This document shows positions 28,477 through 63,287 of a stretch of DNA of 64,000 nt, one piece after another. Below the pieces are notes generated by a model. It made no database searches. It was not told the DNA's origin and saw only the letters and a program-made list of their open reading frames with translations. The position numbers and the translations under genes were made by a program. Within the stretch, counting starts at the first letter, position 1. Every line of letters starts with the position of its first letter. Source of the DNA: Candidatus Kuenenia stuttgartensis (GTDB lineage Bacteria; Gemmatimonadota; Gemmatimonadetes; Gemmatimonadales; Gemmatimonadaceae); contig CALQGY020000005.1 in NCBI GenBank assembly GCA_943330235.2, forward strand, positions 1-64,000, written 5' to 3'.

Positions 28477-28501
28477 GCATTTTCCTTATGCGAGAAAATG
28501 C
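28477..28501. repeat. inverted repeat upstream of fliQ promoter
   Basis: GCATTTTC and GAAAATGC form an 8-bp dyad around a 9-nt centre. It lies three bases upstream of the predicted sigma-54 site and is AT-rich against the GC-rich background. Confidence 0.65.
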
Positions 28502-28506
28502 AAAGT

Positions 28507-44927: not shown

Positions 44928-44970
44928 GGTCGGGTGCGGACGTGAGGGTGGACTGATGTCTCTCTTAGAA

Positions 44971-44985
44971 GCACAGGGGATGCCA
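44971..44985 (-). promoter_or_regulatory. predicted sigma-54 promoter of fliL operon
   Basis: Read on the minus strand the site is TGGCATCCCCTGTGC: TGGCA at -24 and TGC at -12 with correct spacing. Transcription would start near 44959, giving a leader of about 32 nt. The region 44986-45150 behind it has no gene. Confidence 0.7.
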
Positions 44986-45156
44986 CGGGGACGGATTCCC
45001 CGTGTATTGGACGATTTATTCTTCAAGTCGTTGCAAAGGAACAACTTGCAGATTCCGCATCCGGCCGGGGCTCGCCCCGGCGCCCGCCCGCCCCAGAATC
45101 AGACGGCGGCAATGCGCGCCGCATCCGGCAACAATTGCCCGCTGAGAACGACAAAG

Positions 45157-45243: not shown

Positions 45244-46764
45244 TTACCGCTTCACGGTCATCAGTTCCTGGAGCATTTCGTCCGAGGTGGACACCACCTT
45301 GCCGTTCGCCTGGAAGGCGCGCTGGGCCACGATCATGTTCGTGAACTCCTGCGCCAAGTCGACGTTGGACATTTCCAAGGCGCCGCTGGTCAGCTGCGAC
45401 TGCGACCCTTCCAGCGCGAAGCCCAAGACCGCGCTGCCGGAGTTGGCCGATTCCTGGAGCATGTTGTCGCCGATACGCAGCAAGCCGGACGGGTTATTGA
45501 AGTCGGCCAGCACGATGCGGGCGAGCGACGACGTCGTACCGTTCGTGAAGAAACCCGTGATCAGGCCGAAACGGTCGATCGTGAAGTTCTGCAGCGAACC
45601 GGCGGTGTAGCCGTTCTGGTCGCGGAGCACCGCGGTGGAGGCGGTCGACGCGAACTGCGTCAGGCCGTTCACGCCACCGTTGAGCTTGAGGTCGATCTGC
45701 ACGGGGTTGGCACCCGGCACCGCGAAGTCGAGCGCGGCCGTGATGTTCGTGCTCATGATGCCGGCCTGGTCGAACGTGAACGTGCCGGCGTTCACGCTGG
45801 GCACGGCCGTTGTCGGGCTCATGAAGTACGAAATCTTGATTTCCGAGTTCGACGGCATGTTCGACGTGAACTGCACGGCCGGCGGCGGGCCACCCGAGAA
45901 GGACCAATCCAACGGCGTCGAGTACGGCGTCCCGGTGCTGCTGGTCACCTGCACGTTCGCCGGCAGGATTTCGTAGCCGGACGGCGGCGTCGGCAGGCCG
46001 ATGTCGGCCGGCGGAATGCTGCCGCTCGTCTGGAAGCTTTCCGTCAGCGCCGAGGCGATCGGATCAATCTGCCAGTCCCACGTGTTGGCCGACGTCTTCC
46101 ACATCTGGATCTTGATGTCGTGCTTCGAACCCTGCGAGTCGAACACAGCGATCTGCGACTCGGTCCACGCCTTCTCATTGATGGGCAGCGCGCGATCGAG
46201 CGGATCCTGGAAGTTGCCGAGGAACACCGGCGCCGAGGCGTTCAGGTTGCCCGCGAGCACGGCCTGCGTGGTCGGGTTGGCCGAGACCTTCTGACCGAAC
46301 GGCAACTTGATGTCGCGGATACCGTCCTGCAGCTGGCCGTTGTCGTACATGCGTCCCTGCACGATGAAGCCGTTGGCCGGCGACACCAGCTGGCCTTCCG
46401 CGTCCACCTGGAAGTTGCCGGCGCGGGTGTAAAAGCTCTGGTTGCCCTTTCGCACGACGAAGAACGAGTCACCCTGCACGGCCACGTCGGTGTTCAGACC
46501 CGTCGTTTCGAGGTTACCCTGGTTGACGATCTGGTCAATCGAGCCGATCTGCATGCCGAGACCGATCTGCACCGGGTTGATACCACCCTGGTCTCCGGGG
46601 GGACGGCTCGCACCCTGCAGCAACTGGGCGAAGCCTTCCTTGAACGTCACGCGACCAGCCTTAAAGGCGACGGTGTTGACGTTGGCGATGTTATTACCGA
46701 TCACGTCCATGCGCACCTGATTGTTGCGCAGGCCGGAGACACCAGCATAAAGAGAACGAAGCAT
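45244..46764 (-). CDS. flgE: flagellar hook protein FlgE
   Basis: FlgE builds the hook. The 506-residue protein opens MLRSLYAGVSGLRNNQVRMD followed by NNIANVNTVAFKAGRVTF, carries LNTDVAVQGDSFFVVRKGNQ, and ends MSNVDLAQEFTNMIVAQRAF and NGKVVSTSDEMLQELMTVKR. It is the last gene of the flgB operon, 28 bp after flgD, and is followed by a terminator hairpin. Confidence 0.96.
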   Translation of the reverse strand: MLRSLYAGVSGLRNNQVRMDVIGNNIANVNTVAFKAGRVTFKEGFAQLLQGASRPPGDQGGINPVQIGLGMQIGSIDQIVNQGNLETTGLNTDVAVQGDSFFVVRKGNQSFYTRAGNFQVDAEGQLVSPANGFIVQGRMYDNGQLQDGIRDIKLPFGQKVSANPTTQAVLAGNLNASAPVFLGNFQDPLDRALPINEKAWTESQIAVFDSQGSKHDIKIQMWKTSANTWDWQIDPIASALTESFQTSGSIPPADIGLPTPPSGYEILPANVQVTSSTGTPYSTPLDWSFSGGPPPAVQFTSNMPSNSEIKISYFMSPTTAVPSVNAGTFTFDQAGIMSTNITAALDFAVPGANPVQIDLKLNGGVNGLTQFASTASTAVLRDQNGYTAGSLQNFTIDRFGLITGFFTNGTTSSLARIVLADFNNPSGLLRIGDNMLQESANSGSAVLGFALEGSQSQLTSGALEMSNVDLAQEFTNMIVAQRAFQANGKVVSTSDEMLQELMTVKR

Positions 46765-46792
46765 CGTGGATGGTCCTGGTGGAGGTTCGCGG

Positions 46793-47590
46793 TCAGCCGC
46801 GGATCTGAGTCAACTGAGACATCGGGACAGAGAGGGAATCGCCAAGAATCAGAATGGGATTGCCCTGGTCGTACTTCATGCCGGTAATCCGTCCGGCCGT
46901 GTACGTTTTCACTGCCTGCCACTGCTGGCCGCCATCCGTTGCGACCTCGAACTTGAACGAGTACTTGCCGGCCTTATCGAGCGGCGGGGTGAACGTGATG
47001 TCGCGGAGATCAAAGGACTGCTGACCAGTCCCCACCTTGTCGATGGTGCCTTGCGCGACCTGCTTGCCGCTGGCGTCGGTGATGGTGACGCGGCCGGGGC
47101 CGCTGACCGTCCCTGAATCGATCACGAGTGAACCGCTGAGATCGCGATTCACGAACACCGTGTTGCCGGTCGTCACGCCGACCTTTCCCACCGTCGACAT
47201 GGCCATCTGCCCTTCAATCAGCGCCGCGAGCTCGTCACTGCGCGTGGTCTGCGACTCGCCGAGCGCGGTGAGCGCTTTGGCGGTCGCCTCCGAAGCGGAT
47301 TTCGACGCGTCCATCGACTTGTTGAGCGTCACGAGCTGCTCGACTGACGAGAACTGGGCGAGCTGCGCCGCCATGTCCTTGCCGTCCATCGGATTCATCG
47401 GATCCTGATTCTTCAGCTGGGCGACCAGCATCTTCAGGAACTCGTCCTTCCCCATGCCGCTGGGGTTGGTCGGGAGGGTGCGCGGCTGCGACGGCTCTGC
47501 CGCCCCGGAGGGCGGAGAGGCGACCGGCGTGCCGCCGGTCGTTGCCGCGCTGAACATGGGGCTGATAGTGTTGCGGACTGCGGTGATCAT
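46793..47590 (-). CDS. flgD: hook-capping (scaffold) protein FlgD
   Basis: FlgD caps the growing hook. The 265-residue protein has the conserved N-terminal MGKDEFLKMLVAQLKNQDPM followed by NPMDGKDMAAQLAQFSSVEQ, and a C-terminal FlgD Ig/tudor-like region (GRVTITDASGKQVAQGTIDK). It overlaps fliK by four bases, consistent with the conserved order fliK-flgD-flgE. Confidence 0.95.
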   Translation of the reverse strand: MITAVRNTISPMFSAATTGGTPVASPPSGAAEPSQPRTLPTNPSGMGKDEFLKMLVAQLKNQDPMNPMDGKDMAAQLAQFSSVEQLVTLNKSMDASKSASEATAKALTALGESQTTRSDELAALIEGQMAMSTVGKVGVTTGNTVFVNRDLSGSLVIDSGTVSGPGRVTITDASGKQVAQGTIDKVGTGQQSFDLRDITFTPPLDKAGKYSFKFEVATDGGQQWQAVKTYTAGRITGMKYDQGNPILILGDSLSVPMSQLTQIRG

Positions 47591-49782
47591 GTGGTGCTCC
47601 CGTTGGACGAGTCACGCTGGCCACGCTGGCCAGCACCCTGTCGTGCCGAATCCCGCTGCTCTTCGCGCGACTGCCGCGACTGCTCGGGCCGATCCCATTC
47701 ACGCGCATTGGCCGAGCGATCACGCTGGCCCTGATTCATCGCACCGTCGTTCGAGGCGGACTGCTGTGCCGCGTTCAGGCGAATGCCGTCGCGCTCGCCG
47801 GCGATCGCGCGGCTGACATCGGCCGACTCTACCTTCGCCGCACTCGAGATCTGCACGCTGTCGCTCTCCAGGCCGTGACGGCCCAGGGCGTCCTGCAGCT
47901 CGGCGGTGCGCATACGCAGCCGCTCGGCGTTGGACGCGTCGGTGCTGATCTGCGTCGCCACACTCGCGCCACGCAGATCGACCGTGATCCGATCCTGACC
48001 GCCATCCGGCGCATCGACGTTGAGCGTCATGCGCGAGACCGCGCCAGCCGGCGCGCTGTCGCGAAGATCCTGCAACTCGGTCACGCGGTCGGTGCTCCCC
48101 GCGGCCACCACGGCCGGCGTCGAGCCCGCGTCGGTGGGCGCCGAGGTCATCGTCGGCTGCTGCGCACCGAAGGCGGCCGATTCCGTCGCCCCCAGCGTCT
48201 CGCGTCGAGCGGATCCGATCTTCCGGCCCTCGTTCGTCGAACGCCCTTGGTCATCACGCTCGCCACGACCAGACGCATGGCCCTGACCGTTCGTGTTCGC
48301 GGGCCCGGCCATGGTCACCGTGGCTGGTGCCGAACTGCTCACGGGCGAGTAGCTGCGATCAAAGCCACGGGACGAAGCGGTATCGGCTACGCCGGCGACG
48401 CTGGCGACACCCGCCGTTCCCGCCGTTCCCGCCACACGCGCCACCCCCGCCTGATTGGCGTTGGTCGCAATCAACGGCACCGCCTTGAACTCCCGCGGCA
48501 CGGCGGAGGCTACGCGCGCGCCATTGTCACGCGGTCCATCGCTGGGCAACTCGAGATGTCCGGGATCGCGCGCACCAAGGGTCTTCAACCCTTCTTCGGC
48601 GGCGATACGCTGGAGGCGCGAGAACCCTTCGGGGTTGTTGTACTTGCCATCAACGACCACGTCGACCGCTTCGCCGCGCGTGTGCGCCGAGTCGCGCGTC
48701 CACGTCACCACGGAGCCGGGACGCGTGCGTCCCTGGTCGAACAGGAAGTCCTGCCGTTCCTGCGAGCGCGCGGTCTCGACGATGGACACATCATGGCCGA
48801 ACTCGCCCTTCATCCGCTCCACCACCCGCTCAAGGCGGCTGCGGAGTTCCGGCGCCAAGGGGTCGACGGTGCGAATCGGTGTGGTCACGTCCGCAGCGGA
48901 CGCCGCATTCGCCTGCGCCAGCGCGGTGGCCGCGGCGGTCGCGGCCGCCGACATCGCGGCGTTGTCTCCGGCGCTGGCTAGTTCGAGCCCGGCCGGCGTG
49001 CCGGCACGCGACAGCAGCGCATCCAGCGCCACGCGCACACCAGCGGCATCGTTCTCGCCCAGCGCCTTCAATTGGTCAACCGACGCGCCACGCCGCGCCA
49101 CAATGCGGCTCAGCACCTCGCGGCCACGGCCATGATCACTGGCCGACTGCAGCGCCCGCGCGAGCCCGCGCAGCTCGTCGGGCGACGGTTGCATGGACGG
49201 CGCACCAAACCCTGCCAAGTCGATGGACGACGATTCTCCGTCGGCCGTTGAGTCCTTCAGAATGCCATAGCGCAGCGCGTCGGTGGTTCCGCGCGCCCGC
49301 TGCATCGCCGCCGCCAGCACATCCGATGGCGACATCGCGCCCGTCGGTGTCGACGACGTCAGCAGGTCGCTCCCCGAGAGGAGGGACGCGCCCTCCTCGG
49401 CCGATCCCTGCAGGAGCTTATCAATCAGCGACGCATCGCCGACCGGCATCTGCTTCATCAAATCGGTGCGCACCTTCGGGCCCGCGCCCGCCAGGAGCGA
49501 GAGCAATCCCGCAAACTCGGCGCGCGTCGGCTTCCGCACCTCGCGCACGTTCGACTCGTTGTCCGACGCCTCGGTCTCATCGGTGCGAGAGGCCGTGTCC
49601 GTGCTCGACGCGCGGCGGCTGCGCGTCGCATTGCTACGCGACGCGTCCACACGCGACGGCTCGAAACGCGACGGCTCCGGGCGCGACGCATCCGGGCGGG
49701 CGTTATCGACGCGCGACGGCTCAGAGCGAGACGGCTCGGGGCGCGGCGACGGCTTGTTCGTGAAAACGGTATTGATATTCAT
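47587..49782 (-). CDS. fliK: hook-length control protein FliK with embedded M15-like peptidase domain
   Basis: The 731-residue protein has an Arg/Ser/Pro repeat N-terminus (1-60), a helical export/ruler region (80-300), an M15 peptidase-like domain (310-415), a linker, and a C-terminal FliK domain (about 580-650: RMTLNVDAPDGGQDRITVDL; SNAERLRMRTAELQDALGRH). The M15 part shows VETARSQERQDFLFDQGRTR, SAHTRGEAVDVVVDG (zinc ligands His367 and Asp374) and RDPGHLELP (His409 with Asp406), as in L-alanyl-D-glutamate or D-Ala-D-Ala peptidases. Synteny (fliJ-motE-fliK-flgD) supports FliK. It overlaps its neighbours by four bases each. Confidence 0.88.
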   Translation of the reverse strand: MNINTVFTNKPSPRPEPSRSEPSRVDNARPDASRPEPSRFEPSRVDASRSNATRSRRASSTDTASRTDETEASDNESNVREVRKPTRAEFAGLLSLLAGAGPKVRTDLMKQMPVGDASLIDKLLQGSAEEGASLLSGSDLLTSSTPTGAMSPSDVLAAAMQRARGTTDALRYGILKDSTADGESSSIDLAGFGAPSMQPSPDELRGLARALQSASDHGRGREVLSRIVARRGASVDQLKALGENDAAGVRVALDALLSRAGTPAGLELASAGDNAAMSAAATAAATALAQANAASAADVTTPIRTVDPLAPELRSRLERVVERMKGEFGHDVSIVETARSQERQDFLFDQGRTRPGSVVTWTRDSAHTRGEAVDVVVDGKYNNPEGFSRLQRIAAEEGLKTLGARDPGHLELPSDGPRDNGARVASAVPREFKAVPLIATNANQAGVARVAGTAGTAGVASVAGVADTASSRGFDRSYSPVSSSAPATVTMAGPANTNGQGHASGRGERDDQGRSTNEGRKIGSARRETLGATESAAFGAQQPTMTSAPTDAGSTPAVVAAGSTDRVTELQDLRDSAPAGAVSRMTLNVDAPDGGQDRITVDLRGASVATQISTDASNAERLRMRTAELQDALGRHGLESDSVQISSAAKVESADVSRAIAGERDGIRLNAAQQSASNDGAMNQGQRDRSANAREWDRPEQSRQSREEQRDSARQGAGQRGQRDSSNGSTT
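48538..48855 (-). other. M15 peptidase-like domain inside fliK
   Basis: This segment encodes FliK residues 310-415. The motifs H-x6-D (367/374) and D-x2-H-x-E (406/409/411), and an upstream R-S-x-x-R-Q segment, are in the order and spacing of zinc-dependent M15 peptidoglycan peptidases. All expected metal ligands are present. Confidence 0.8.
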
Positions 49783-50579
49783 GGCGTGGTCCCGGCAGGG
49801 CGGGTCGCGCCCTTGGTGACGGCTGCCGCACGGGCGGACGGAAACTGCGTGAGGATCGCGGCCGCAGTCCGGTCGCTCATTCGCGCGAGGATGTTGCGCA
49901 CATCCGTATCGGGCATCTGCTCCATCACCTTCGCGGCGTCCTTGGAGGACATCGCGCTGAAAATCTTGGCGAGGCGTTGCTCGGGCAGTGCGGTCGCCAG
50001 CGCTTCGTTCCGAGCGCTGCGCACCACGTCAGCCACGGACGACGTGGCGGCCTCCGCTTTCGCGCCGGCGGTAGTGGCACTCTTGCCGGGCATGCCGTTC
50101 GCGGCGGCCGGTTTTGCCGGGTCGCTATGCGGCGCCTCGGCAGGATTGGCGCTAGCGGCCAGCTTCGACGACGCCGCCGCCTTCAGCGGGGTCGCCTTGG
50201 TCGCCACGTCCTTTGACGGCACTGCCGACGGCACTTCCTTCGACGGCACTTCCTTCGACGGCACTTCCTTCGACGGCGCCACCGCGCTCGGCTCGGCGGC
50301 CGTCTTCGCGGACTCACGCGAGGCCTCGAGTGCACGAATGCTATCGGCCGGCGTCATCGGGATGGGTTCCCCCACGACGGCCGAGTCAGGCGTCGCATGC
50401 CCCTCGGACGCCACCGTCTCGTGCGCGGTGGAGTCGGTCGGCGGATGCGCCTTCAGGCTGTCCGCACGCTGGATCGAATCCGCTGCGAACGCTTTCGACG
50501 CGCGCATGTACGCAAATCCGGATCCCCCGCCGATACCGGCGAGGATCGCGATGACTGCGGGGATGATCAACTTCTTCAT
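49779..50579 (-). CDS. MotE/YlxF-like flagellar protein
   Basis: The 266-residue protein has an N-terminal membrane anchor (LIIPAVIAILAGIGGGSGFA), a long Ala/Ser/Lys/Pro linker including a repeated SKEVP unit, and a C-terminal MgtE_N-like helical domain (RLAKIFSAMSSKDAAKVMEQ, then MPDTDVRNILARMSDRTAA). This matches MotE/YlxF, a periplasmic or membrane-linked chaperone of MotC or the stator in other bacteria; a role here is inferred. Its order between fliJ and fliK is the same as ylxF in Bacillus. It overlaps both neighbours by four bases. Confidence 0.78.
   Translation of the reverse strand: MKKLIIPAVIAILAGIGGGSGFAYMRASKAFAADSIQRADSLKAHPPTDSTAHETVASEGHATPDSAVVGEPIPMTPADSIRALEASRESAKTAAEPSAVAPSKEVPSKEVPSKEVPSAVPSKDVATKATPLKAAASSKLAASANPAEAPHSDPAKPAAANGMPGKSATTAGAKAEAATSSVADVVRSARNEALATALPEQRLAKIFSAMSSKDAAKVMEQMPDTDVRNILARMSDRTAAAILTQFPSARAAAVTKGATRPAGTTP
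50227..50275. repeat. 15-bp tandem repeat in motE-like gene
   Basis: GACGGCACTTCCTTC is repeated about three times without change, encoding Lys-Glu-Val-Pro-Ser units in the linker. The array is in frame. Confidence 0.9.
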
Positions 50580-51100
50580 GAATTCGAACCGTGGTTCCTG
50601 GGAGTCTTCGGTGCGGCAGAGTCGGGGCGCCCCCGAATCGATGCATCCTCGGCGGCACGTGCTTCTGCATTACGCGAGAATCGGGCCAGCGCGATTTCGT
50701 CCATGCCAACGCGGTCCCGATGCGCCTCTTCCGCGCGGAATTGCTCCGTATGCCGAACCTTGAGCCGGTCCAACACCCGCCGATCGCGCGACGCATCCGA
50801 GAGCACCTGCTGGGCGCCGACGACGCTGTCTTCGGCCACGCGCACCTGCTCGCCGGCACGCTCCAGCCGTTGATCCAGCGCATTGAGCACGAGGCCCAGC
50901 TGACGCAAATGCCCTATGCGGGGCTCCGCGTGATGGGCGGCGGCCACTTCGGCGCGCGAGGAGGCATGCAGCTGCGCCAACGCATCGCGATCGCGGCGCG
51001 CCGCCTCGGCGACATCCTGCGCCACGGCCAGTTCGCGCGCCTTCGCCTGCTCGGCCTGCTCACGCAATTCCAGGATTCGCTGCAACCGGAACTTGAACAT
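50576..51100 (-). CDS. fliJ: flagellar export chaperone FliJ
   Basis: FliJ is the coiled-coil stalk of the export ATPase. The 174-residue protein opens FKFRLQRILELREQAEQAKA and is helical and charged throughout. It overlaps the fliI stop by one base (TGATG) and the next gene by four. The C-terminal 30 residues are less helical than usual. Confidence 0.85.
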   Translation of the reverse strand: MFKFRLQRILELREQAEQAKARELAVAQDVAEAARRDRDALAQLHASSRAEVAAAHHAEPRIGHLRQLGLVLNALDQRLERAGEQVRVAEDSVVGAQQVLSDASRDRRVLDRLKVRHTEQFRAEEAHRDRVGMDEIALARFSRNAEARAAEDASIRGRPDSAAPKTPRNHGSNS

Positions 51101-52479
51101 CAGCGACGCGCCACGGACGACTCAATCGCTTCGGCAATCTTCGCCATCGCCTGGTAAGTATCGCCGTAGTGGGAGATTTCGTCCGGGCGCTGCTGCAGAA
51201 ATTGCAGGGCACGCTCCCGATACTGGATCGCCGCGTCCACATAGGGATCGCTCCCCTTGAGGTACGCGCCTACCATGATGAGGTCTTCCTTCTCGCGATA
51301 CGCCGCTTCCAGTCGCATCAGCGCGTTGCCGGCGCGACGCTGGACGTCGTTGATGATGTGATCGCGGACACGACTCTTCGATTCCAGCACGTCGATGGCC
51401 GGAAAATGATTCTGCCCCGCGAGTCGGCGCGTAAGAACGATGTGCCCGTCCAGAATCGAGCGTGCCGCATCGGCGACTGGCTCGTTGAAGTCGTCACCGT
51501 CCACCAGCACGGTGTAGATGCCCGTGATGCCGCCACGCGACCCGTTGCCGGCGCGCTCGAGCAAACGCGGTAACGACGCGAACACCGAGGGCGGATAGCC
51601 CTTCGTGGTTGGCGGCTCGCCCGTGGCCAACCCGATCTCACGCCATGCCATCGCGACACGCGTCACCGAGTCCACCATCAGCATCACCTGCTTGCCCTGG
51701 TCGCGGAAATATTCCGCAATCGCGGTCGCCACCAGCGCGCCACGCGCACGCACCAGTGCGGCCTGATCGCCCGTCGCGACAATCACGACGGAGCGGGCCA
51801 ACCCTTCGGGACCAAGCGAGTTCTCGATGAACTCGCGCACTTCGCGACCGCGCTCGCCCAACAGCGCGATGACATTCACATCCGCTTGTGCGTGTCGCGC
51901 GATCATACCGAGCATCGTGCTCTTACCCACGCCGGAGCCGGCGAAAATACCCACGCGCTGGCCACGGCCAATCGTCAGCAGGCCATCGATCGCGCGCACA
52001 CCGGTTTCCAGCGGGCGGTCGATCGTGTCACGCTCCAACGGATTCGGTGGCTCCGCCGACAGCGGCACGCGCTCGATCACATCAAGCTTGCCTTTGCCAT
52101 CAATGGGATGGCCAAGCCCGTTCAGGACGCGACCCAGCAGGCCGGGCCCCACGTCCACACCAAACGTGCGACCAAGCGGCTGCACCGAACTGCCCGGATG
52201 CAGACCATCCAGTTCGCCCAAGGGCATCAAGAGCACGCCGCGCTCGTGAAAGCCGACGACCTCTGCCAGCACCGAACGATCACGCGAATGACTGGTGATG
52301 CGGCACAGCGACCCCAGGCCGACTTCGAGGCCCGTGGCCTCGAGGACGAGACCCACCACGCGCGTCACGCGCCCATAAGCCGCCAGTCGGTCGTTCGGAT
52401 CGAGACGGCCGAGCATCGACGACACCATCGGTGTCAGCGCATCGCCGAATGCCGGATCGGCGTGAATGGAGAGACTCAT
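51100..52479 (-). CDS. fliI: flagellar export ATPase FliI
   Basis: FliI powers substrate loading for export. The 459-residue protein has Walker A FAGSGVGKSTMLGM, Walker B-region LMVDSVTRVAMAWREIGLAT, and the FliI/ATP-synthase-beta signature YPPSVFASLPRLLERAG. It overlaps fliH by four bases and fliJ by one. Confidence 0.97.
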   Translation of the reverse strand: MSLSIHADPAFGDALTPMVSSMLGRLDPNDRLAAYGRVTRVVGLVLEATGLEVGLGSLCRITSHSRDRSVLAEVVGFHERGVLLMPLGELDGLHPGSSVQPLGRTFGVDVGPGLLGRVLNGLGHPIDGKGKLDVIERVPLSAEPPNPLERDTIDRPLETGVRAIDGLLTIGRGQRVGIFAGSGVGKSTMLGMIARHAQADVNVIALLGERGREVREFIENSLGPEGLARSVVIVATGDQAALVRARGALVATAIAEYFRDQGKQVMLMVDSVTRVAMAWREIGLATGEPPTTKGYPPSVFASLPRLLERAGNGSRGGITGIYTVLVDGDDFNEPVADAARSILDGHIVLTRRLAGQNHFPAIDVLESKSRVRDHIINDVQRRAGNALMRLEAAYREKEDLIMVGAYLKGSDPYVDAAIQYRERALQFLQQRPDEISHYGDTYQAMAKIAEAIESSVARR

Positions 52480-53135
52480 GCCTGGATCTGCCCGATGCTG
52501 CGATAGGCGCGTTCCAACGAGGTATCTACGCGTCCGTCGATGATGCGCTCACGCCCTTCCACCAGACAGCCGCCGCGCGCGATATGCGCATCGGCCACGA
52601 GACGCACATCCTGCTCGCGTCCCTTGCCGTCCACGAAGGTCGTGCTGCTGCACGTCTCAGCATCGGCGGGATGCAGGCGCACCGTAATTCCTTGGTCGAT
52701 GGGAAAGCTGATCAGTGCACGCTGCACGAGATCGCGCACGATCGTGGCATCCGTTGTGACCTCGCGTTGCACGATGTGGCGCGCAACCGCGATAGACAGT
52801 GCGGCCACGTTCTCCTCGGCATTCGCGATCCAGCGGGCTTCATGCAACTGCACCGACGCCAGCGCGTCGCTCAGCGCACTCAGGCCCGCGGCCATCCGCG
52901 CTTCCGCATCGGCGCGCATCTCCTGCACCGCGTCCTGATATCCACGCTCGTACGACTCGGCTTCCAACCGGGTGCGCTCGGCGGCGAAGTGCGCATGCAG
53001 GTCGATGCTCGCCGTTGCATCCGCCGCCGCGTCCATCTCTGCGTCCGACAGCTCAAACGTCTCGGGAATCGAGAGCTCGTCGAGCGCCCACGGGGTCGCC
53101 ATCATCGGTTTCTTGGCGCGGTCAGATGATGACAT
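52476..53135 (-). CDS. fliH: flagellar export ATPase regulator FliH
   Basis: FliH inhibits and localises FliI. The 219-residue protein has an acidic N-terminal third, a helical middle (HFAAERTRLEAESYERGYQD) and a C-terminal domain (IAVARHIVQREVTTDATIVR, then TVRLHPAD). ATG 53135 overlaps fliG by 14 bases; ATG 53105 is an alternative. It overlaps fliI by four bases. Confidence 0.9.
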   Translation of the reverse strand: MSSSDRAKKPMMATPWALDELSIPETFELSDAEMDAAADATASIDLHAHFAAERTRLEAESYERGYQDAVQEMRADAEARMAAGLSALSDALASVQLHEARWIANAEENVAALSIAVARHIVQREVTTDATIVRDLVQRALISFPIDQGITVRLHPADAETCSSTTFVDGKGREQDVRLVADAHIARGGCLVEGRERIIDGRVDTSLERAYRSIGQIQA

Positions 53136-54162
53136 CGTCGGTACCGGCGCTCAGGACGACTTCGCCAGACTCTTCGAGGGCGCGCACCTTCGACACGATA
53201 TCCGACTGCGCGGCTTCCACGTCGCGCATCTTGACCGGTCCCAGGAACTCGATCTCTTCCTTGAGCCCCGCGACCGCACGCTGCGACATGGTGCCCATGA
53301 TCTTGTTGCGCAGGTCGGAGCTGGCCGCCTTGAGCGCCAGCGCCAACTGCTTGACATCCACTTCGCGTAGCAGACGCTGCAGCGACTTGTCGTCGAGCGA
53401 GATGAGATCCTCGAAGACGAACATGAGGTTCTTGATCTGGTCGCTGAGTCCCGGATCGCGCTCGGCCACGAGGTCGAGCACTTCTTTCTCCAACGACGAG
53501 TTGACCAGGTTGAGCACCGCGGCAACAGCCGCTGGCCCACCCACCGAGCTCATGCCCGCCGAGAACGCGAGATCCGCTTCGTTGCCGATGGCCCGCTCAA
53601 CCAGCGAGATCATCTCCGGCGAGACCTTCTCCATGCGCGCGATGCGAAACATCACGTCACCACCGAGCGACGGATCGATTTCGCGAATGATGGCCGCCAC
53701 CTGACTCGGGTCCAGGTGGGCAAGAATGAGGGCGATGGTTTGCGGGTGCTCACCGCGCAGCGTGCTGCCTAACTGCTGCGGGTCCGCACGACGCAGCCGA
53801 CCGAAGCGATCGCTATCGGCGAGCTGCCCTTGAATACGCTTGAGAATTGCGCTGGCCTTCAATCCGCCGAACGCTTTCTCCAACACGTCCTTGGCATACT
53901 CCACACCGCCGGCGCTCAGCGAATCGACACCGAGCGTGAGCTCGAGCCATTCGGACAACACATAGTCGATCGTCGCGGGCGGCACCCGATCCAGCTGGGC
54001 GACTTCGAGCGCGATAATTTCCGCTTCTTCCGGATGTAGAGCGGCCGTGATGGTAGCCGCATGCTCTGAGCCGAGCGCCATGCAAATGATGGCAGCCTTC
54101 TGTCGACCGGTGAGTCGGTCGGGAGCGTAGCGGTCGGCGCTGTTACGGGCGAGTGCGATCAT
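53122..54162 (-). CDS. fliG: flagellar motor switch protein FliG
   Basis: FliG transmits stator force to the rotor. The predicted 346-residue protein has LTGRQKAAIICMALGSEHAA, the armadillo motif GEHPQTIALILAHLDPSQVA, and the C-terminal torque helix region (FVFEDLISLDDKSLQRLLRE). ATG 54162 (MIALARNSAD) is preferred; a TTG at 54186 overlapping the fliF stop could add eight residues. Confidence 0.96.
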   Translation of the reverse strand: MIALARNSADRYAPDRLTGRQKAAIICMALGSEHAATITAALHPEEAEIIALEVAQLDRVPPATIDYVLSEWLELTLGVDSLSAGGVEYAKDVLEKAFGGLKASAILKRIQGQLADSDRFGRLRRADPQQLGSTLRGEHPQTIALILAHLDPSQVAAIIREIDPSLGGDVMFRIARMEKVSPEMISLVERAIGNEADLAFSAGMSSVGGPAAVAAVLNLVNSSLEKEVLDLVAERDPGLSDQIKNLMFVFEDLISLDDKSLQRLLREVDVKQLALALKAASSDLRNKIMGTMSQRAVAGLKEEIEFLGPVKMRDVEAAQSDIVSKVRALEESGEVVLSAGTDDVII

Positions 54163-54182
54163 CGTGTGAGATCTTCCGTCGT

Positions 54183-55787
54183 TCAAGTACGCAGCCAGGC
54201 GCGCGTCACACGGATCGCGGCGTCTGGACGTTGTTCAACTGTGGCAATGGCCTGTTCGCGCTCGGGCGTGGTCGGCGCCTTCGGCAGCACGATGACCCGC
54301 TTCACTTCCTCGACCGGGGGCTGCAACCGCTCCTGCGCCGCGTCGATGGCGTCCTGCAGTGACGTCGACGAGGTCGATGCCGGCAATTCAGCGTAGCCGG
54401 GCGTCGTCGCCAACGCGCGCTGTTCGCTCGCCGTCAACGGCACCTTCTTGGGCTTGAGCGCGCTCATCGCCACCAGACCCACGATCAGCAACACCACCAA
54501 CGCGGTGATCGCGATGATCGGCTTCGGATTCGACTGCAGTCGCCCCACCAGATCCTGCGCGGGCACCGAGTCCGTCACGATGGCCTCTGGGGCCGGCATG
54601 TCGAACGGCGCACTCACCACCGAAATCATGTCGCCGCGCGCCGAGTCCACGCCGAGCGCGTTGCGCACCAGCGACTCGATGCGCGTGAGCTCTTCGGCGG
54701 AACGCGTGGTCACCGTCGGCAGCACCGGCGTGGCGGGCGCTGTGGCCGTCGCCGCTGCGGCCGGCGGCATGGTCACCTTGTCGGCGATCAGCACGGCGAC
54801 GGTCAGCTTCTTGAGATTGCCCGTCGCGCCGCTGAACGTCTCGACGCTGCGCGAGTTTTCGTATGAGGTGGCGGTCTGCGTGTAGCCCGCGCCCTGCTGC
54901 GGCGAGCTGGGCGACACTTCCGACTTCTGCTCGGTGGCCAGCGCCTGCTTGTCGGGATCAACGGCCTGCGTCGTGCGCTCGACCTTGTCGAAGTTCATCG
55001 ACGCGGACACCTGAACGCGCGCATTGCCCGTGCCCACCAGGCTCGATAACAGTCGATCGGCCTTCTGCTCCATGTACGTCTCAACTTCGCGCTGCACGGC
55101 AAGCTGACGGCTGCTCAGTCCCGCGAGCGAGCCGTCATCCTGCATGGTCAGCGACTGACCGCGCGCGTCCACGATCGTGACATGCTCGGCATCCAATCCG
55201 CCGACGCTGCCGGCCACCATGCTGGCGATACCCTGCACCATCTCCGGCTTTGGCGGCACGCCGCCGGTCATCGTCAGCGTCACCGACGCCTTCGACGGAC
55301 GATCGCTCGACTTAAAGAGCTTGTCGTCTTCCAGCGCGAGGTGCACCTGCACCGCTTCGATGTTGGTGAGCTTACCGATCGACCGCTCGAGTTCTCCCTC
55401 GAGCGCGCGACGATAGTTCACTTTCTGCGTGAAGTCCGTCATGCCCCATGACGGCTTGTCGAACAGTTCCAGTCCCGGACGGCCCGAGCCCGGCATCGCT
55501 TCGGCGGCCATATCCACGCGCGCCTTGACGAGGTCGGTGCTCGACACCAGGATCGTCGTCCCCGTGGCGTTGTCCAGTTCGAAGACGATGCCCAGCTCGG
55601 TGAGCTTGTCGGTCATCTTCTTGACCTGATCGACCGGGACGTCCGCGTAGAGCGGGACCATGGTGGGCCGAGTCGCCCAGGTCGAAACGCCGAAAACGCC
55701 GGCCGTGACGGCGACGCCGACGGCGACGATGGCGATCTGACGGCCGCGACTCATGCGGCCGAAAACGGAGTCTGCGAAGGAAGCCAT
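54183..55787 (-). CDS. fliF: flagellar MS-ring protein FliF
   Basis: FliF is the first ring built in the inner membrane. The 534-residue protein has a first membrane helix (IAIVAVGVAVTAGVFGVSTW), the YscJ-like domains (MVPLYADVPVDQVKKMTDKL; VHLALEDDKLFKSSDRPSKA), a periplasmic loop, a second helix (PIIAITALVVLLIVGLVAMS) and a C-terminal FliG-binding tail. It is 16 bp downstream of fliE. Confidence 0.96.
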   Translation of the reverse strand: MASFADSVFGRMSRGRQIAIVAVGVAVTAGVFGVSTWATRPTMVPLYADVPVDQVKKMTDKLTELGIVFELDNATGTTILVSSTDLVKARVDMAAEAMPGSGRPGLELFDKPSWGMTDFTQKVNYRRALEGELERSIGKLTNIEAVQVHLALEDDKLFKSSDRPSKASVTLTMTGGVPPKPEMVQGIASMVAGSVGGLDAEHVTIVDARGQSLTMQDDGSLAGLSSRQLAVQREVETYMEQKADRLLSSLVGTGNARVQVSASMNFDKVERTTQAVDPDKQALATEQKSEVSPSSPQQGAGYTQTATSYENSRSVETFSGATGNLKKLTVAVLIADKVTMPPAAAATATAPATPVLPTVTTRSAEELTRIESLVRNALGVDSARGDMISVVSAPFDMPAPEAIVTDSVPAQDLVGRLQSNPKPIIAITALVVLLIVGLVAMSALKPKKVPLTASEQRALATTPGYAELPASTSSTSLQDAIDAAQERLQPPVEEVKRVIVLPKAPTTPEREQAIATVEQRPDAAIRVTRAWLRT

Positions 55788-55803
55788 GAAAACGTCGCGG
55801 GGA

Positions 55804-56118
55804 TCAGGACTGCATGGAAATGACGGACCGGTAGGCCTCGACGGCCTTATTCCGTAATTCGATCAAGAGGTCGAGGGCCAGCCCAGCTTCTTCGGACGCG
55901 GCCATCACCTGGTGCAGCTCGACGTTCTCGCCGTTGGCGAACCGCTGCGTGAGATCACCACTGCGATCGCGCGCATCAGACACTTCATTGAGCGCGCGCG
56001 TCAGGGTGCTGCCGAAAGAGTTCTGCCCCTCGCCCACCACCGGCACCTGCTTCGCGCCAGTGTCTCGGCCGGCAAATTCCGGCATCGAGCGAGTCAGGAG
56101 ATCGATACGATTCTGCAT
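55804..56118 (-). CDS. fliE: hook-basal body protein FliE
   Basis: FliE joins the MS ring to the rod. The 104-residue length is normal, with the C-terminal helix ENVELHQVMAASEEAGLALD followed by LLIELRNKAVEAYRSVISMQ, diagnostic of FliE. ATG 56118 is used; codons upstream of it encode a Cys/Arg-rich sequence unlike the family. Confidence 0.93.
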   Translation of the reverse strand: MQNRIDLLTRSMPEFAGRDTGAKQVPVVGEGQNSFGSTLTRALNEVSDARDRSGDLTQRFANGENVELHQVMAASEEAGLALDLLIELRNKAVEAYRSVISMQS

Positions 56119-56655: not shown

Positions 56656-57204
56656 TTAGATGTCGATGGAGGCGCGGAGCATCGACTTGGCCACCTGAAA
56701 GACCGAGACGTTGGCCTCGAAGATGCGCTTGGCGTCGAGCAACCGAACCGTTTCCTGCGTCGTGTCGATGTCCGGGTAGCGGACGTAGCCCGTGGCGTCG
56801 GCGTCGGGGTGACCGGGCTCGTAGACCAATCGGCCCTCACCCTGATCTTCCGCGATGCCGGCGACGCGCACACCGTACTCACCGGCGTCGGGTCCCGTAC
56901 CCATCATCGCGGTGCGCGGGAGCACCGGCACGACGATGGGCTTGATGCCATCCGTGGTCACCGACGGCACGGTGAACGGCGTTGAGCCGAACACGCCGCC
57001 GCTGCCCATGCTGCCCGCACCACCCTGCTCGCCGTAGACCGCGTTGCCGGCCGAGGCGGATTCCATGATGACGTCGCGCCGCTTGTACGGCTGTCCATCG
57101 GTCCCGCGCGTGACATCCGCGTTGGCGATGTTCTGTGCGATGGTTTCCATCCGCTGGCGCTGGGCCGACAATCCGCTGGCGGCAATCCCGAGCGACTTGA
57201 ACAT
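56656..57204 (-). CDS. flgC: flagellar proximal rod protein FlgC
   Basis: The 182-residue protein starts MFKSLGIAASGLSAQRQRME with QNIANADVTRGTDG, the rod-protein signature, and ends VSVFQVAKSMLRASIDI. It is longer than typical FlgC (about 135-150), with an extended central region. ATG 57204 fits the conserved N-terminus; an ATG at 57270, overlapping the flgB stop (TAATG), would add 22 residues and cannot be excluded. Confidence 0.92.
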   Translation of the reverse strand: MFKSLGIAASGLSAQRQRMETIAQNIANADVTRGTDGQPYKRRDVIMESASAGNAVYGEQGGAGSMGSGGVFGSTPFTVPSVTTDGIKPIVVPVLPRTAMMGTGPDAGEYGVRVAGIAEDQGEGRLVYEPGHPDADATGYVRYPDIDTTQETVRLLDAKRIFEANVSVFQVAKSMLRASIDI

Positions 57205-57269
57205 CGGTCGCACGGTGGACTGGCTCGGGAGCGGCAACAGCGCGGGGCGGCGAATCGGATCGATCGGCA

Positions 57270-57569
57270 TTAGACGGCGCTACCCTTGATGGCGCCACGC
57301 AGGCTGGCGTAGGTCTTCTCGAGGAGACGGGCGGTGGCCAGAAAGCGGACCTGCTCATCCGCCAGCGACACCATCTCGTCTTCGACATTGATGGGGTTGG
57401 CGTTCGCCACCGGAGCTTTCCCGTTGGCCTGGAGTGCAAAGCCGTCGCTGTTCTGCAGCGTGGCCTTGGACACTCGATCCGCAATGCTCCGAGACCGCTC
57501 GACACTGCGGTCGAGGGCCGATTTGAGCGGCGAGGCTGATGTGACGCGATCGATGAATCCGAAGAGCAT
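57270..57569 (-). CDS. flgB: flagellar proximal rod protein FlgB
   Basis: The 99-residue protein is somewhat short for FlgB (usually about 115-135) but has the expected C-terminal ANPINVEDEMVSLADEQVRF, and an N-terminal helix LKSALDRSVERSRSIADRVS. The usual NxANxxTPxY loop is degenerate. Its position at the head of the operon, before flgC, supports the call. ATG 57569 lies 49 bp downstream of a strong sigma-54-type site. Confidence 0.88.
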   Translation of the reverse strand: MLFGFIDRVTSASPLKSALDRSVERSRSIADRVSKATLQNSDGFALQANGKAPVANANPINVEDEMVSLADEQVRFLATARLLEKTYASLRGAIKGSAV

Positions 57570-57617
57570 CGGCGGGTTTCCGGGAAGAATGTGCGAACGA
57601 TCTCACACCCCGAAAAA

Positions 57618-57632
57618 GCAATGCGCGGGCCA
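57618..57632 (-). promoter_or_regulatory. predicted sigma-54 promoter of flgB operon
   Basis: Read on the minus strand the site is TGGCCCGCGCATTGC, followed by TTTTT. It matches TGGCAC-N5-TTGC except for one base, with exact GG-N10-GC spacing. The predicted start is near 57606, about 37 nt before the flgB ATG. Confidence 0.8.
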
Positions 57633-57689
57633 CGGCGCGCCGCCGACACGAAACTGCCTCAGAACGCGCTGGATGTGCGCTCTCTAAGT

Positions 57690-57732
57690 CTTTCGCTGAC
57701 AATAATTTACGAAATTACAAGAAATATTTTCC
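57690..57732. promoter_or_regulatory. AT-rich tract upstream of flgB promoter
   Basis: This block (AATAATTTACGAAATTACAA and following bases) is strikingly AT-rich against a GC-rich background and lies about 60-100 bp upstream of the sigma-54 site. That is where a bending protein or the activator would bind. It also contains a loose inverted repeat around AATTTAC/GAAATT. Confidence 0.45.
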
Positions 57733-57792: not shown

Positions 57793-57817
57793 AAAACCTG
57801 CCGCCCCACGAGGGGCG
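57793..57817 (-). terminator. terminator after NtrC-family gene
   Basis: CGCCCC and GGGGCG form a 6-bp stem around ACGA; on the minus strand it is followed by GCAGGTTTTTCC. It lies 11 bp past the stop of the regulator gene, a good intrinsic terminator. Confidence 0.65.
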
Positions 57818-57828
57818 ATTCGTGCCGA

Positions 57829-59325
<1,497 letters not shown>

Positions 59326-59464: not shown

Positions 59465-59491
59465 TAAAGACTGACCCCCGCCCTCCGATAC
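59465..59491 (+). promoter_or_regulatory. predicted sigma-28 (FliA) promoter of flgL-fliW
   Basis: TAAA (59465-59468) and TCCGATAC (59484-59491) are separated by exactly 15 bp, the spacing of the consensus TAAA-N15-GCCGATAA; the -10 box matches at six of eight positions. The start would be near 59498, about 65 nt before the flgL ATG. Confidence 0.75.
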
Positions 59492-59563: not shown

Positions 59564-60472
59564 ATGCGCGTTACCAACCAGATCATCACGCGGAACAGTC
59601 AGGCCCGCCTGCAAAGTGGATTGCAGGGGGTGGATCGCCTGCGCGAAGATATCTCGTCGGGCATCCGCATCCGGAAGATGTCGGATGATCCGACGTCGGC
59701 CGGCGAGGTCGTTCGCGTCGGCAGTTCGATGCGCGCCATCGCGCAGTTCCGCCGCAACATCGACCTCGGTGTCGCGCGCGCCTCCGCCGAAGAAACGGCG
59801 CTCAATTCCGTGACGGACAGTCTCGGGCGCGCGATCGAACTGGGTGTCGCGCAATCGTCCGCCACCGGCAACGCGCAATCACGCCTCATCGTCAAAGCCG
59901 AAGTCGATACGCTGCTCAAGTTCGCGGTCGATCTCGGCAACACGAAACTGGGTGATGCCTACGTGTTTGGTGGTACGCGCAGTGGCGAGGCACCGTTCGC
60001 GATGCCGACGACCGCCACGGGGACCTTTTCTGCCCTCACCGACGCGAGCGGGCCGGTCGACCCAAGCGGCACACCGCGCATGGAAATCGGTGACAACAAG
60101 TTTGTCACCCCGGTGCACAACGGCACCGAAGTATTTCTGGATACCGATGTCCTCAACTCCCTGCGCGCCCTGTCGACGGCGCTGGGCAACAATGACATCC
60201 CCGGCATTCGCGCTGCCACCGACCGTATTACGGCGGCGAGCGCGAACGTACAAAACGTGCTCGGTACACAGGGCGCGCGCATTAATGAAATGGAGAACGC
60301 CCGGACGAATCTGGACGGGACCGAATTGATGCTCAAAGCATTCCGCGCCGATCTGAGAGACACGGAAGTCGACAAGGCGATGGCGGAACTCGTAGGCAAA
60401 CAGACGCTGTATCAGGCCGCTATGAGCGCGACGACGCGAATTCTCGGCCTAAGTCTCGCCAACTATCTGTAA
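59564..60472 (+). CDS. flgL: flagellar hook-filament junction protein FlgL (HAP3)
   Basis: FlgL is the second hook-filament adaptor. The 302-residue protein starts MRVTNQIITRNSQARLQSGL, with the flagellin-like D0/D1 helices (LREDISSGIRIRKMSDDPTS), and ends DTEVDKAMAELVGKQTLYQA and ATTRILGLSLANYL. It is far from flgK but directly before fliW, as in many bacteria where fliW lies next to flagellin or flgL. Confidence 0.95.
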   Translation: MRVTNQIITRNSQARLQSGLQGVDRLREDISSGIRIRKMSDDPTSAGEVVRVGSSMRAIAQFRRNIDLGVARASAEETALNSVTDSLGRAIELGVAQSSATGNAQSRLIVKAEVDTLLKFAVDLGNTKLGDAYVFGGTRSGEAPFAMPTTATGTFSALTDASGPVDPSGTPRMEIGDNKFVTPVHNGTEVFLDTDVLNSLRALSTALGNNDIPGIRAATDRITAASANVQNVLGTQGARINEMENARTNLDGTELMLKAFRADLRDTEVDKAMAELVGKQTLYQAAMSATTRILGLSLANYL

Positions 60473-60480
60473 TCCCCCTC

Positions 60481-60990
60481 ATGACTTCCGTAGCACACGA
60501 CTCTTCGCTGTCTGCTGACACCGCTCTCCGTCCCGTCGCCTCGCTCGTGTTGGGCGATATCGAAGTCGGGCCCGATGTGATCATGTCTTTCGCCACGCCA
60601 CTGTGGGGCTTCCCCGATCATCACGAGTATGCGCTGGTGCCGGCGGCCCGCGAGGGGCTATGGTGGTTGCAGTCGCTGACCGGGGAAGGGGTCACCTTCC
60701 TCCTCGCGGATCCGTTTGTGATCGATGCCACCTACGGCGTGGATCTGGGTGACACGGAGCGTGCGACGCTCGGCATTGAACAGCCCACCGATGCGCTGGG
60801 GCTGGTGATGCTCACGTTACCCATGGATCCGACGAGCGGCGCCACCGCGAATTTTCGCGCGCCGATCGTGTTCAATCTGGCCAAGCGCAAAGGGATGCAG
60901 GTGGTGAGCCGCGACGACGCGCATGATCTGCGTCATCCGGTGTCGCTGGATGTGTTCCCACCGCAGGCGAGCGGCGTTCGGCTGCAGTAG
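60481..60990 (+). CDS. fliW: flagellar assembly factor FliW
   Basis: FliW binds flagellin and, when free, sequesters CsrA so that flagellin mRNA is translated. The 169-residue protein fits the family: FATPLWGFPDHHEYALVP, LQSLTGEGVTFLLADPFVID, and TANFRAPIVFNLAKRKGMQV. It follows flgL by eight bases. CsrA is encoded at 14197. Confidence 0.93.
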   Translation: MTSVAHDSSLSADTALRPVASLVLGDIEVGPDVIMSFATPLWGFPDHHEYALVPAAREGLWWLQSLTGEGVTFLLADPFVIDATYGVDLGDTERATLGIEQPTDALGLVMLTLPMDPTSGATANFRAPIVFNLAKRKGMQVVSRDDAHDLRHPVSLDVFPPQASGVRLQ

Positions 60991-61067: not shown

Positions 61068-63242
61068 CTACGCGCGCAGCGCGCGCAGTAACGCGTCGGC
61101 CGCCGCGTCCCAGCTGAAACGGCGTGCGGTCGCGATACCGGCCTCGTTGCGCGTGAGGGTGCCGGCCTGACGGGCCACGTGCACGTCGCGCAGATGCGCG
61201 ACCAGCTGCACATGCTGCGAGATATCCCAGGCGGCCCAGGCACCGGTCTGCGTACCACCCATTGCGGGCTCCGTCCGATCGATGCGGATGAGCCGCGCAT
61301 TCGCTGCCGACAAAAACGCGGTGTGCGCCGTCACGTGTGTCGCTATGACCGCCTTACCCAGCGAGAGCATCTCGAGCGCCTCCAGGTTCCACCCCTCGGC
61401 GCGCACAGCGAACACGCCGCAATCGGCCGTGGCCATCAAGGACGCCACGTCATGCGCGCTGGGTAGTTCCGTCGTCACCAACGTGATGCGGTCGCGCATG
61501 GGCGAGGCACGAAACGGTGCCGCCATGTGCGCGAACTCGTCGTGCGTCATGAACGGGTTAAAGCAGTGCAGCACCAGCTGCACGGCATCGTCGGGCGTGA
61601 AGGCTTCTTCAAACGCGCACAGCAGTTCGAACTGCCCCTTCCGCACTTCGAGTTTCCCCACCTGCATAAACACCGTGTCACCGGACGGCGCCGGGCGTGT
61701 CACCGCCTCATGAAACACCGTGCGATCAACACCCAACGGCACGACGTGCATGGGCACGGTGATCCCGTCGCGTTGGCATACCTCACGCGCCCACTCGGTG
61801 CAAACCAGCAGCGCATCCTGCGCCTGTAACTGCGCACGCTCGTCGGCGGTGAATGCATCGCGCTCGAAAATCGTAAACCCGACACGCGGTCCGTCGCCGA
61901 CATGATCCGTGAGATCGAACTGCTGCGACAAGCGCACGCTTGGCACGTGCCTCGCGATGGTCTGCTGCGCGGCGAGCGCCTCGTCCAGCACGGGGTTGCT
62001 CAGTAACGTGCGGTCGACGGCACCAATCGGGCGGAACGCCACGGGAATACCTCGTCGCTGCAGCGCCCGCAGGAGATGCGATCCAACCACGCCATATCCG
62101 GTGCGGCTGTGCGGCGCCGCGAAGACGAAGCCGTCGCGCTCAGGGGTCCAGCGTGCCGTCGCATCGTGCGCCGCACGCTGCTGGGCCGCGGCAATTGCGC
62201 GCTCATACACCGTCATGCGCGCGTCGACGACCATGGCCACGTCATGCTCCTGCCGCACACGCGCCTGACCGGCCGCGCCCAGCTTGTCGCGCAAACGCGC
62301 GCTCCGCAGCACCGCGAGTATCTGTCGGGCGATGTCGTCAGGCTTGGTGGCCTCGGCCAGTAGCCCCGTCGCGCCGTGGCGAATCACCTCGCGTGCATCG
62401 CCACGTGTGGAACCCACCACCGGTACGCCGACGGCCTGCGCGGCGAGAAGGAGTCGCGCCGAGGGATCGTCATCGCCCAGGCTGAGCAAGAGCGTTGCGC
62501 GCCGCAGTTCCGCGGCGAGCGTGGCATCGGTCTGTGCCGCCACATCGACAAACGACACGTCGGGGTACACGGCGACGACCGCATCGCGGACCGCGGCCAG
62601 CACCGATGCCGCAGCCGCTGTCTGCGTTGGCGAGACAAGGATGCACGCGTTGGCATCGGCGTTCGTTCTCGCCGCATGCACCGCCGCGTTATCCGCGGCT
62701 CGCTGCCACTGGGCTATATCGATGGCCACGGGAACGATCGCCGTGTGATCCGCCGCGATCCCCGTGTACGCCACGGTCTCCTCCAACGCGCGTGGCGAGA
62801 CCGCCATCCAGGTCTGCACGCGCGACAGCCAGTCGCGCGGCGGCGCGTCGCTCGCGCGCACGTGGTAGCCATACAGCCGCACCACGTCTGCGATGCCGAT
62901 CACGGGTTCGATGAACCATTCGGCCGCATCGTTCCACTCAATGACGTCAATGGGCGCGGCGGCGTGCAAGGCCACGATCTGTGCACGCAACGCGCGGCGC
63001 GCGTCGACCGGCGATGCGCCCTCGCTGGCATGCGGTATGACGTGCGGGATGACCTGCACGCCGTCGTCGCGCTCGGTGGTGTCGTACCATCCGAAGACGG
63101 TGACGTGATGGCCGGCGCGCACGAGCGCGCGCGCGATGGTGCGCATGTCGGCCGCCATCGGTGCGCCGACGGCGGGGGCCGCGCGGTCGCCGACGAACAG
63201 CACGTGCAGGGCGCGGCCGCCATCCACGCGGCGCTCAGTCAT
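61068..63242 (-). CDS. tandem-domain glycosyltransferase (two GT-B/GT4-like halves)
   Basis: The 724-residue protein holds two glycosyltransferase folds. The N-terminal half (about 10-365) opens HVLFVGDRAAPAVGAPMAAD and has the GT4 donor-site motif region DAREVIRHGATGLLAEATKP. The C-terminal half (about 375-720) has VFAAPHSRTGYGVVGSHLLR, a FMQVGKLEVRKGQFELL segment and VRAEGWNLEALEMLSLGKAV (E-x-n-E motif). No membrane segment is visible. Because it lies beside flgL-fliW, glycosylation of flagellar proteins is a reasonable guess, but cell-surface polysaccharide work is equally possible. ATG 63242 is used. Confidence 0.8.
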   Translation of the reverse strand: MTERRVDGGRALHVLFVGDRAAPAVGAPMAADMRTIARALVRAGHHVTVFGWYDTTERDDGVQVIPHVIPHASEGASPVDARRALRAQIVALHAAAPIDVIEWNDAAEWFIEPVIGIADVVRLYGYHVRASDAPPRDWLSRVQTWMAVSPRALEETVAYTGIAADHTAIVPVAIDIAQWQRAADNAAVHAARTNADANACILVSPTQTAAAASVLAAVRDAVVAVYPDVSFVDVAAQTDATLAAELRRATLLLSLGDDDPSARLLLAAQAVGVPVVGSTRGDAREVIRHGATGLLAEATKPDDIARQILAVLRSARLRDKLGAAGQARVRQEHDVAMVVDARMTVYERAIAAAQQRAAHDATARWTPERDGFVFAAPHSRTGYGVVGSHLLRALQRRGIPVAFRPIGAVDRTLLSNPVLDEALAAQQTIARHVPSVRLSQQFDLTDHVGDGPRVGFTIFERDAFTADERAQLQAQDALLVCTEWAREVCQRDGITVPMHVVPLGVDRTVFHEAVTRPAPSGDTVFMQVGKLEVRKGQFELLCAFEEAFTPDDAVQLVLHCFNPFMTHDEFAHMAAPFRASPMRDRITLVTTELPSAHDVASLMATADCGVFAVRAEGWNLEALEMLSLGKAVIATHVTAHTAFLSAANARLIRIDRTEPAMGGTQTGAWAAWDISQHVQLVAHLRDVHVARQAGTLTRNEAGIATARRFSWDAAADALLRALRA

Positions 63243-63287
63243 TAGGCCGGCTCTCAATACGCCGGTGCAACGGGGCCGACCATGCGA

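Follow-up and report, generated by a model that had tools for sequence, protein, structure and literature searches.

A predicted sigma-54 promoter and a recurrent candidate enhancer at the flagellar operons of a Gemmatimonadaceae genome

The flgB locus and its sigma-54 site

The window, that is, the whole 64-kb stretch of DNA analysed here (64,000 nucleotides), carries a regulator gene next to the rod gene flgB, with flgL and fliW on the opposite strand. The features of this part of the window are as follows.

57617 to 57632, minus strand: predicted sigma-54 promoter (-24/-12) of flgB, TGGCCCGCGCATTGCT, conserved in relatives
57270 to 57569, minus strand: flgB (rod), first gene of its operon, named from its place before flgC and its conservation in 66 family genomes
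56656 to 57270, minus strand: flgC (rod), TIGR01395 above cut-off
45244 to 56115, minus strand: remainder of the flgB operon, fliE through flgE
57801 to 57818, minus strand: terminator-like hairpin with a T run, 3' of the regulator gene
57829 to 59325, minus strand: NtrC-family activator with a receiver (REC) domain carrying Asp52, an AAA+ domain with GAFTGA and a Fis-type HTH (NRTKAAELLGISVRTLRNKL)
59465 to 59490, plus strand: predicted sigma-28-type promoter of flgL (late tier), TAAAG-N14-TCCGATA, similar in 5 of 6 relatives
59564 to 60990, plus strand: flgL and fliW, transcribed away from the regulator gene, an arrangement conserved throughout the phylum

Within the flgB operon, whose intergenic gaps do not exceed about 160 bp, fliE (55804-56115), fliF (54183-55787), fliG (53122-54186; PF01706) and flgE (45244-46764) are accompanied by fliH, fliI, fliJ, a MotE-like gene, fliK and flgD. 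The names of fliH and fliI come from place and sequence, and flgB itself had no match in Pfam or NCBIfam. We infer that these genes form a single transcript.

On the plus strand, positions 57618-57632 read GCAATGCGCGGGCCA; the minus strand accordingly reads TGGCCCGCGCATTGC, followed by T, with a single mismatch to TGGCAC-N5-TTGC and with the GG-N10-GC spacing kept. The original prediction of a minus-strand site one base off consensus and 49 bp before flgB thus holds for sequence and placement, the exact distance being 48 bp to the flgB ATG at 57569. Transcription of flgB is predicted to start near 57606. Also as originally described, an NtrC-type gene with an intact GAFTGA loop ends about 200 bp upstream (196 bp from the site), with the terminator-like hairpin (57818-57801) behind it.

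Sigma-54 motifs as such are no more frequent here than expected by chance. The window holds seven matches to TGGCNC-N5-TTGCW with up to one mismatch versus 9.6 expected, and the genome-wide scan proposed along with the original prediction returned no excess, with 52 exact occurrences of TGGCNC-N5-TTGC versus 61 for the reversed control. Motif frequency was consequently dropped as proof of the flgB site, and the case for it must therefore rest on place and conservation.

Of 148 genomes of the family Gemmatimonadaceae, 66 yielded flgB, and 65 of these loci were read. Among 18 species of this family, 14 from the genus itself and four from a sister genus, the core bases of the site are 99% identical, compared with 38% for the other columns and flanks; in all 18, the site lies 55-63 bp from the start codon and takes the form TGGCC[CT]...TTGCT. 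Other genera show TGGCAC, TGGCAT or TGGTCC, together with TTGC or TGC. When the 200 bp before flgB were shuffled, five or fewer of 300 shuffles reached the best sigma-54 score at 45 of the 65 family loci, while the other 20 have no individually significant site. Named Gemmatimonadota records (Gemmatimonas, Gemmatimonadaceae and other Gemmatimonadota), which overlap partly with the family genomes, carry the sigma-54 site together with the enhancer described below at 35 of 37 flgB loci.

The sigma factor is encoded on contig C30 by a complete rpoN gene, whose translation contains all three sigma-54 domains (PF00309, PF04963, PF04552) and the RpoN box ARRTVAKYRD. The original prediction, which made its case depend on the presence of rpoN, stands on this count. 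As a discriminating test the gene fails, being universal in the family (101 of 101 good genomes) whether flagella are present or absent.

Could the flgB signal be a chance motif, with flgB read from a sigma-70 promoter or by read-through from the regulator? The unremarkable frequency of the sigma-54 motif in window and genome would allow for this, and a weak sigma-70-like match, 9 of 12, does lie at 57751-57723. This match is not conserved, however, and was set aside as the flgB promoter. The terminator-like hairpin after the regulator further argues against such a reading, as do the conservation of the sigma-54 site, its pairing with an enhancer and the phased spacing of the two across genera (see below). 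We thus regard chance as a highly improbable explanation, and the comparisons strongly support the flgB signal as a real, conserved sigma-54 promoter.

A palindromic element upstream of four flagellar operons

Alignment of flgB upstream regions revealed a second conserved element ahead of the promoter, a 25-bp palindrome of the form YAAgtcgTTG-N5-CAAcgacTTR. An enhancer matrix, trained on 47 loci exclusively from other genera, was scanned over the 64-kb window. Its four top sites, at 45024, 20823, 57685 and 28501 (scores 25.9, 25.5, 25.5 and 16.3), each have a GG-N10-GC site 26-52 bp downstream and stand before fliL, flgF, flgB and fliQ, respectively. The next score in the window is 10.7; the maxima of 40 random 64-kb sequences average 11.1 and reach 16.4 at the highest. 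This last value is about that of the site at 28501, for which the case as an enhancer rests mainly on place and conservation. The predicted elements, and the fliA gene that follows one of them, are listed here.

57685 to 57709, minus strand: candidate enhancer (UAS) for flgB, TAAATTATTGTCAGCGAAAGACTTA, separated from the downstream -24 box by 52 bp
44970 to 44985, minus strand: predicted sigma-54 promoter of fliL (start 44927), TGGCATCCCCTGTGCT, conserved in relatives
45024 to 45048, minus strand: candidate enhancer for fliL, CAAGTTGTTCCTTTGCAACGACTTG, 38 bp from the promoter
28459 to 28474, minus strand: predicted sigma-54 promoter of fliQ (start 28394), TGGTACGGTCTGTGCC
28501 to 28525, minus strand: candidate enhancer for fliQ, GAACATATTGCCATTGAACACTTTG, 26 bp from the promoter
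20780 to 20795, minus strand: predicted sigma-54 promoter of flgF (start 20738), TGGCCCGACCGTTGCG
20823 to 20847, minus strand: candidate enhancer for flgF, CAACTCGCTGCAGCACAACAACTTA, 27 bp from the promoter
21507 to 22295, minus strand: fliA (sigma-28), after fliQ-flhG in the same direction, with sigma-70 regions 2, 3 and 4

The fliL operon comprises fliL, fliM, fliN and fliO-P; downstream of fliQ lie fliR, flhB, flhA, flhF, flhG and fliA, and downstream of flgF lie flgG, flgH, flgI, flgN and flgK. Two further genes may be mentioned in passing. The FliO and FliP domains share one 629-aa frame with a long Pro/Ala-rich linker (40933-42822, minus strand), and a chemotaxis receptor encoded at 35177-37747 on the same strand combines a bacterial globin domain with PAS and HAMP, making it a likely oxygen sensor.

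Six relatives of the genus show the enhancer-promoter pair before flgB, fliL, fliQ and flgF at 20 of 20 checkable promoters, and no further pair of equal strength was found in the roughly 240 kb covered in these relatives. Since the pair stands before all main flagellar operons, including those of fliL, fliQ and flgB-fliEFG, one activator probably switches on the whole motor. With operon extents assumed as above, the genes for MS ring, rotor, export, rod and hook would thus share one module with flhF, flhG and fliA, and the promoter map, given its promoter positions, predicts control in one step, not in two tiers.

The alternative is a Vibrio-like order of two tiers, in which sigma-54 and the regulator would serve mainly rod and hook, and the genes for MS ring, rotor and export would be transcribed at an earlier stage from hidden internal promoters. 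Such is the known logic of polar flagellates with FlhF/FlhG (PMC7064773), both of which are encoded here, and internal promoters are possible. However, fliE, fliF and fliG follow close behind flgB-flgC in one direction, the fliL and fliQ operons have module copies of their own in all readable relatives, and cheA is the only kinase gene on the contig. We consider two tiers unlikely. Control in one step would provide a possible natural counter-example to the rule that, in polar flagellates with FlhF/FlhG, the rod and hook genes wait for the export apparatus to be completed.

The distance between enhancer and promoter changes in steps. With the top-scoring enhancer and sigma-54 site each picked independently at 39 family flgB loci, gaps of 16 bp (one locus), 28-30 bp (14 loci), 39-41 bp (23 loci) and 52 bp (one locus) were obtained, and none between. 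Their period is about 11.7 bp, and no random set of 2,000 was equally periodic. In other families of the phylum, the flgB gaps are 40, 50-52 and 62 bp. Such quantised gaps would fit looping with both sites on one helix face, and their spread over dozens of species supplies natural-variation data on sigma-54 activator looping versus helical phase. The period exceeds the 10.5-bp helical repeat; when the 39 family loci are taken together with 28 named ones, the gaps are quantised at 16, 28-30, 39-41 and 50-52 bp.

The adjacent NtrC-family regulator and known flagellar systems

The protein encoded next to flgB matches PF00158 (E 2e-70), PF02954 and, with its receiver domain, PF00072 (E 6e-24). An ortholog is present in 65 of 66 flagellated versus 24 of 82 non-flagellated family genomes (Fisher P = 3e-20). 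The orthologs form one group separate from the genome's other activators, and some copies from non-flagellated genomes nest among the flagellar ones in the tree. The HTH helix is near-invariant among the flagellar copies and different in the paralogs encoded by the present genome. As to gene order, other families of the phylum also have flgL-fliW pointing away from regulator-flgB-flgC-fliE-fliF-fliG, and the regulator stands immediately before flgB also in the families f2, f4 and f5; in some genera it lies several kb from flgB or elsewhere. Six flgB loci of f4 and f5 carry the enhancer-promoter pair, compared with none of four in f2 at the same thresholds. The adjacent NtrC-family protein probably controls flgB, the link between activator and site being one that we infer.

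A strict tie between regulator and flagella was considered and rejected: 24 non-flagellated genomes, which have neither FliG nor FlgB, keep close orthologs, and the regulator may therefore have other duties.

We judge it quite probable that the flgB operon is under a sigma-54 promoter and the adjacent regulator acting via the palindrome, with the module in place at four operons and FliA then turning to the late genes. Sequence and comparison give the promoters and enhancers, how these are spaced and conserved, rpoN and the gene order; on this basis, we predict binding, activation, the identity of the activator and the extents of the operons. In this scheme, sigma-54 RNA polymerase would read the flgB operon from its -24/-12 promoter and wait at all four promoters. 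The regulator (57829-59325) would bind the 25-bp palindrome, the centre of which lies some 91 bp ahead of the predicted flgB transcription start, and a DNA loop would bring it to the polymerase, where its GAFTGA loop and ATP hydrolysis would open the promoter. Through this one activator, MS ring, rotor, export gate, rod and hook would come on at the same time as FlhF/FlhG and FliA, and FliA (sigma-28) would then drive late genes such as flgL, via the site at 59465.

The regulator's divergent neighbours are flgL and fliW, with no cognate kinase gene adjoining, and a search of the 70-kb contig for HATPase_c domains returned no histidine-kinase-type ATPase domain except that of cheA. Several other activators of the genome do adjoin such a domain.

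Class II control by sigma-54 as in Vibrio and Pseudomonas had been proposed for this locus at the outset. At flgB, the sigma-54 part of this proposal is strongly supported by the conserved promoter, the enhancer, the phasing and the gene order; the likeness holds only in part, given that MS-ring, rotor and export genes lie behind the module too and that no kinase adjoins. In studied polar flagellates, the flagellar two-component system has as its targets the rod and hook genes, which come later than MS ring, rotor and export apparatus (PMC7064773; PMC3930126). As a response regulator with an AAA+ GAFTGA domain and a Fis-type HTH, the protein resembles those of FlrC/FlrB (Vibrio), FleR/FleS (Pseudomonas) and FlgR/FlgS (Campylobacter), and common to these systems and ours are sigma-54 promoters of flgB and flgF, a polar-type flagellum with FlhF/FlhG and late genes under fliA. 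Unlike in these systems, no kinase gene stands beside the regulator here, the only one on the contig being cheA; in place of an earlier control of their own, the MS-ring, rotor and export operons have the module; and a conserved palindrome lies upstream at phased spacing. Against the FlgR model NF049963, which was built for Campylobacter, the regulator scores 330 bits (cut-off 750).

FlbD of Caulobacter likewise activates flagellar genes with sigma-54 and has no cognate kinase, but our regulator falls far below the cut-off of the FlbD model NF050807 (361 versus 750 bits), and the MS-ring and export genes of Caulobacter are under CtrA (PMC3930126). With FlrA/FleQ, the predicted system has in common a sigma-54 activator atop the hierarchy that drives basal-body and export genes; rod and hook genes there depend on a second activator (FlrBC, FleSR), which FlrA/FleQ turn on, whereas here one module covers both sets. 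FlrA and FleQ are not known to have a canonical phospho-acceptor receiver domain, in contrast to the regulator with its REC domain and phospho-acceptor Asp52. PrsR/PrsK and PilR share the arrangement of enhancer and sigma-54 site, and a similar palindrome is seen at PEP-CTERM and pilin promoters in the present genome, but the targets differ; the score against the PrsR model is 378 (cut-off 503). RpoN-dependent PEP-CTERM expression is known from Aquincola (PMC9850573).

Parts and chemistry are of a known kind, while tier logic, missing kinase, phased enhancer and phylum appear to be new. In line with the original prediction, which knew of no description in this lineage, the literature yielded none for Gemmatimonadota save a phylum-level survey in which Gemmatimonas is among the organisms covered for sigma-54 and its activators (PMC3162934), and none of the tier logic, the missing kinase or the phased enhancer; subscription papers lay mostly outside this coverage, which makes the absence weak evidence of novelty. 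The Gemmatimonadota, with very little regulatory genetics to date, gain a concrete predicted flagellar regulon of four operons with promoters, enhancers and a candidate activator.

Palindromes beyond the flagellar operons

Exact palindromes occur 21 times in the genome versus five times for the reversed control. With up to one mismatch the count is not above the control (172 versus 182), such that only exact matches exceed it. Four exact palindromes have an exact sigma-54 site 8-70 bp downstream, versus 0.017 expected. Besides the flagellar operons, enhancer-promoter pairs precede genes for type IV pilin, PEP-CTERM, GGDEF and glycosyltransferase proteins and for another activator. Several surface programmes thus have the enhancer code in common, which matches the theme of the phylum-level survey (PMC3162934), and more than one activator may read the palindrome. 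Across the family, palindromes average 14.2 per flagellated genome versus 7.4-8.4 in the other genomes, and enhancers are enriched 2.2-fold even in genomes that lack flagella as well as the regulator. Exclusive use of the palindrome by the flagellar regulator was considered and, on these grounds, rejected.

Enrichment without the regulator, together with the sharing by pilin and PEP-CTERM genes, suggests that similar sites are recognized by other activators, of which one might be at work at flgB. Promoter and enhancer of flgB would then be real, with another NtrC-type protein (PilR- or PrsR-like) or several such proteins as the activator and the neighbour as a bystander or co-regulator. With about eight sigma-54 activators, the genome offers candidates, and the pairs at pilin genes (on C15 and twice on C34), PEP-CTERM genes (on C8, C83 and C153), GGDEF and activator genes favour such a view. 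It is at odds, however, with the regulator-flgB order found in several families of the phylum, with the way the regulator tracks flagella, with the helix that sets its flagellar copies apart from the paralogs in the present genome, and with the approximately six additional enhancers per genome in flagellated genomes. We attach a low probability to this explanation and keep the adjacent regulator as the preferred activator of flgB.

More speculative, and to our mind rather doubtful, is the full extension of this preferred reading, in which one orphan NtrC-type response regulator would alone master the flagellum throughout the Gemmatimonadota, with basal-body, export, rod and hook operons opened simultaneously via helically phased enhancers. 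The same code, whether this regulator or its sister activators read it, would also unite flagella, type IV pili and PEP-CTERM surface proteins in one surface programme under sigma-54.

The type IV pilin genes with a palindrome and a sigma-54 site at a gap of 16-17 bp are found at C15:17443, C34:481 and C34:1900, and the PEP-CTERM genes with a palindrome and sigma-54-like sites at C8:37606, C83:14850 and C153:6474. A further palindrome with a sigma-54-like site, at C5:64225-64249 and hence 225 bp beyond the window end, precedes the gene of a 758-aa glycosyltransferase. This gene lies near a second large glycosyltransferase-like gene (61068-63257), which is located beside flgL-fliW.
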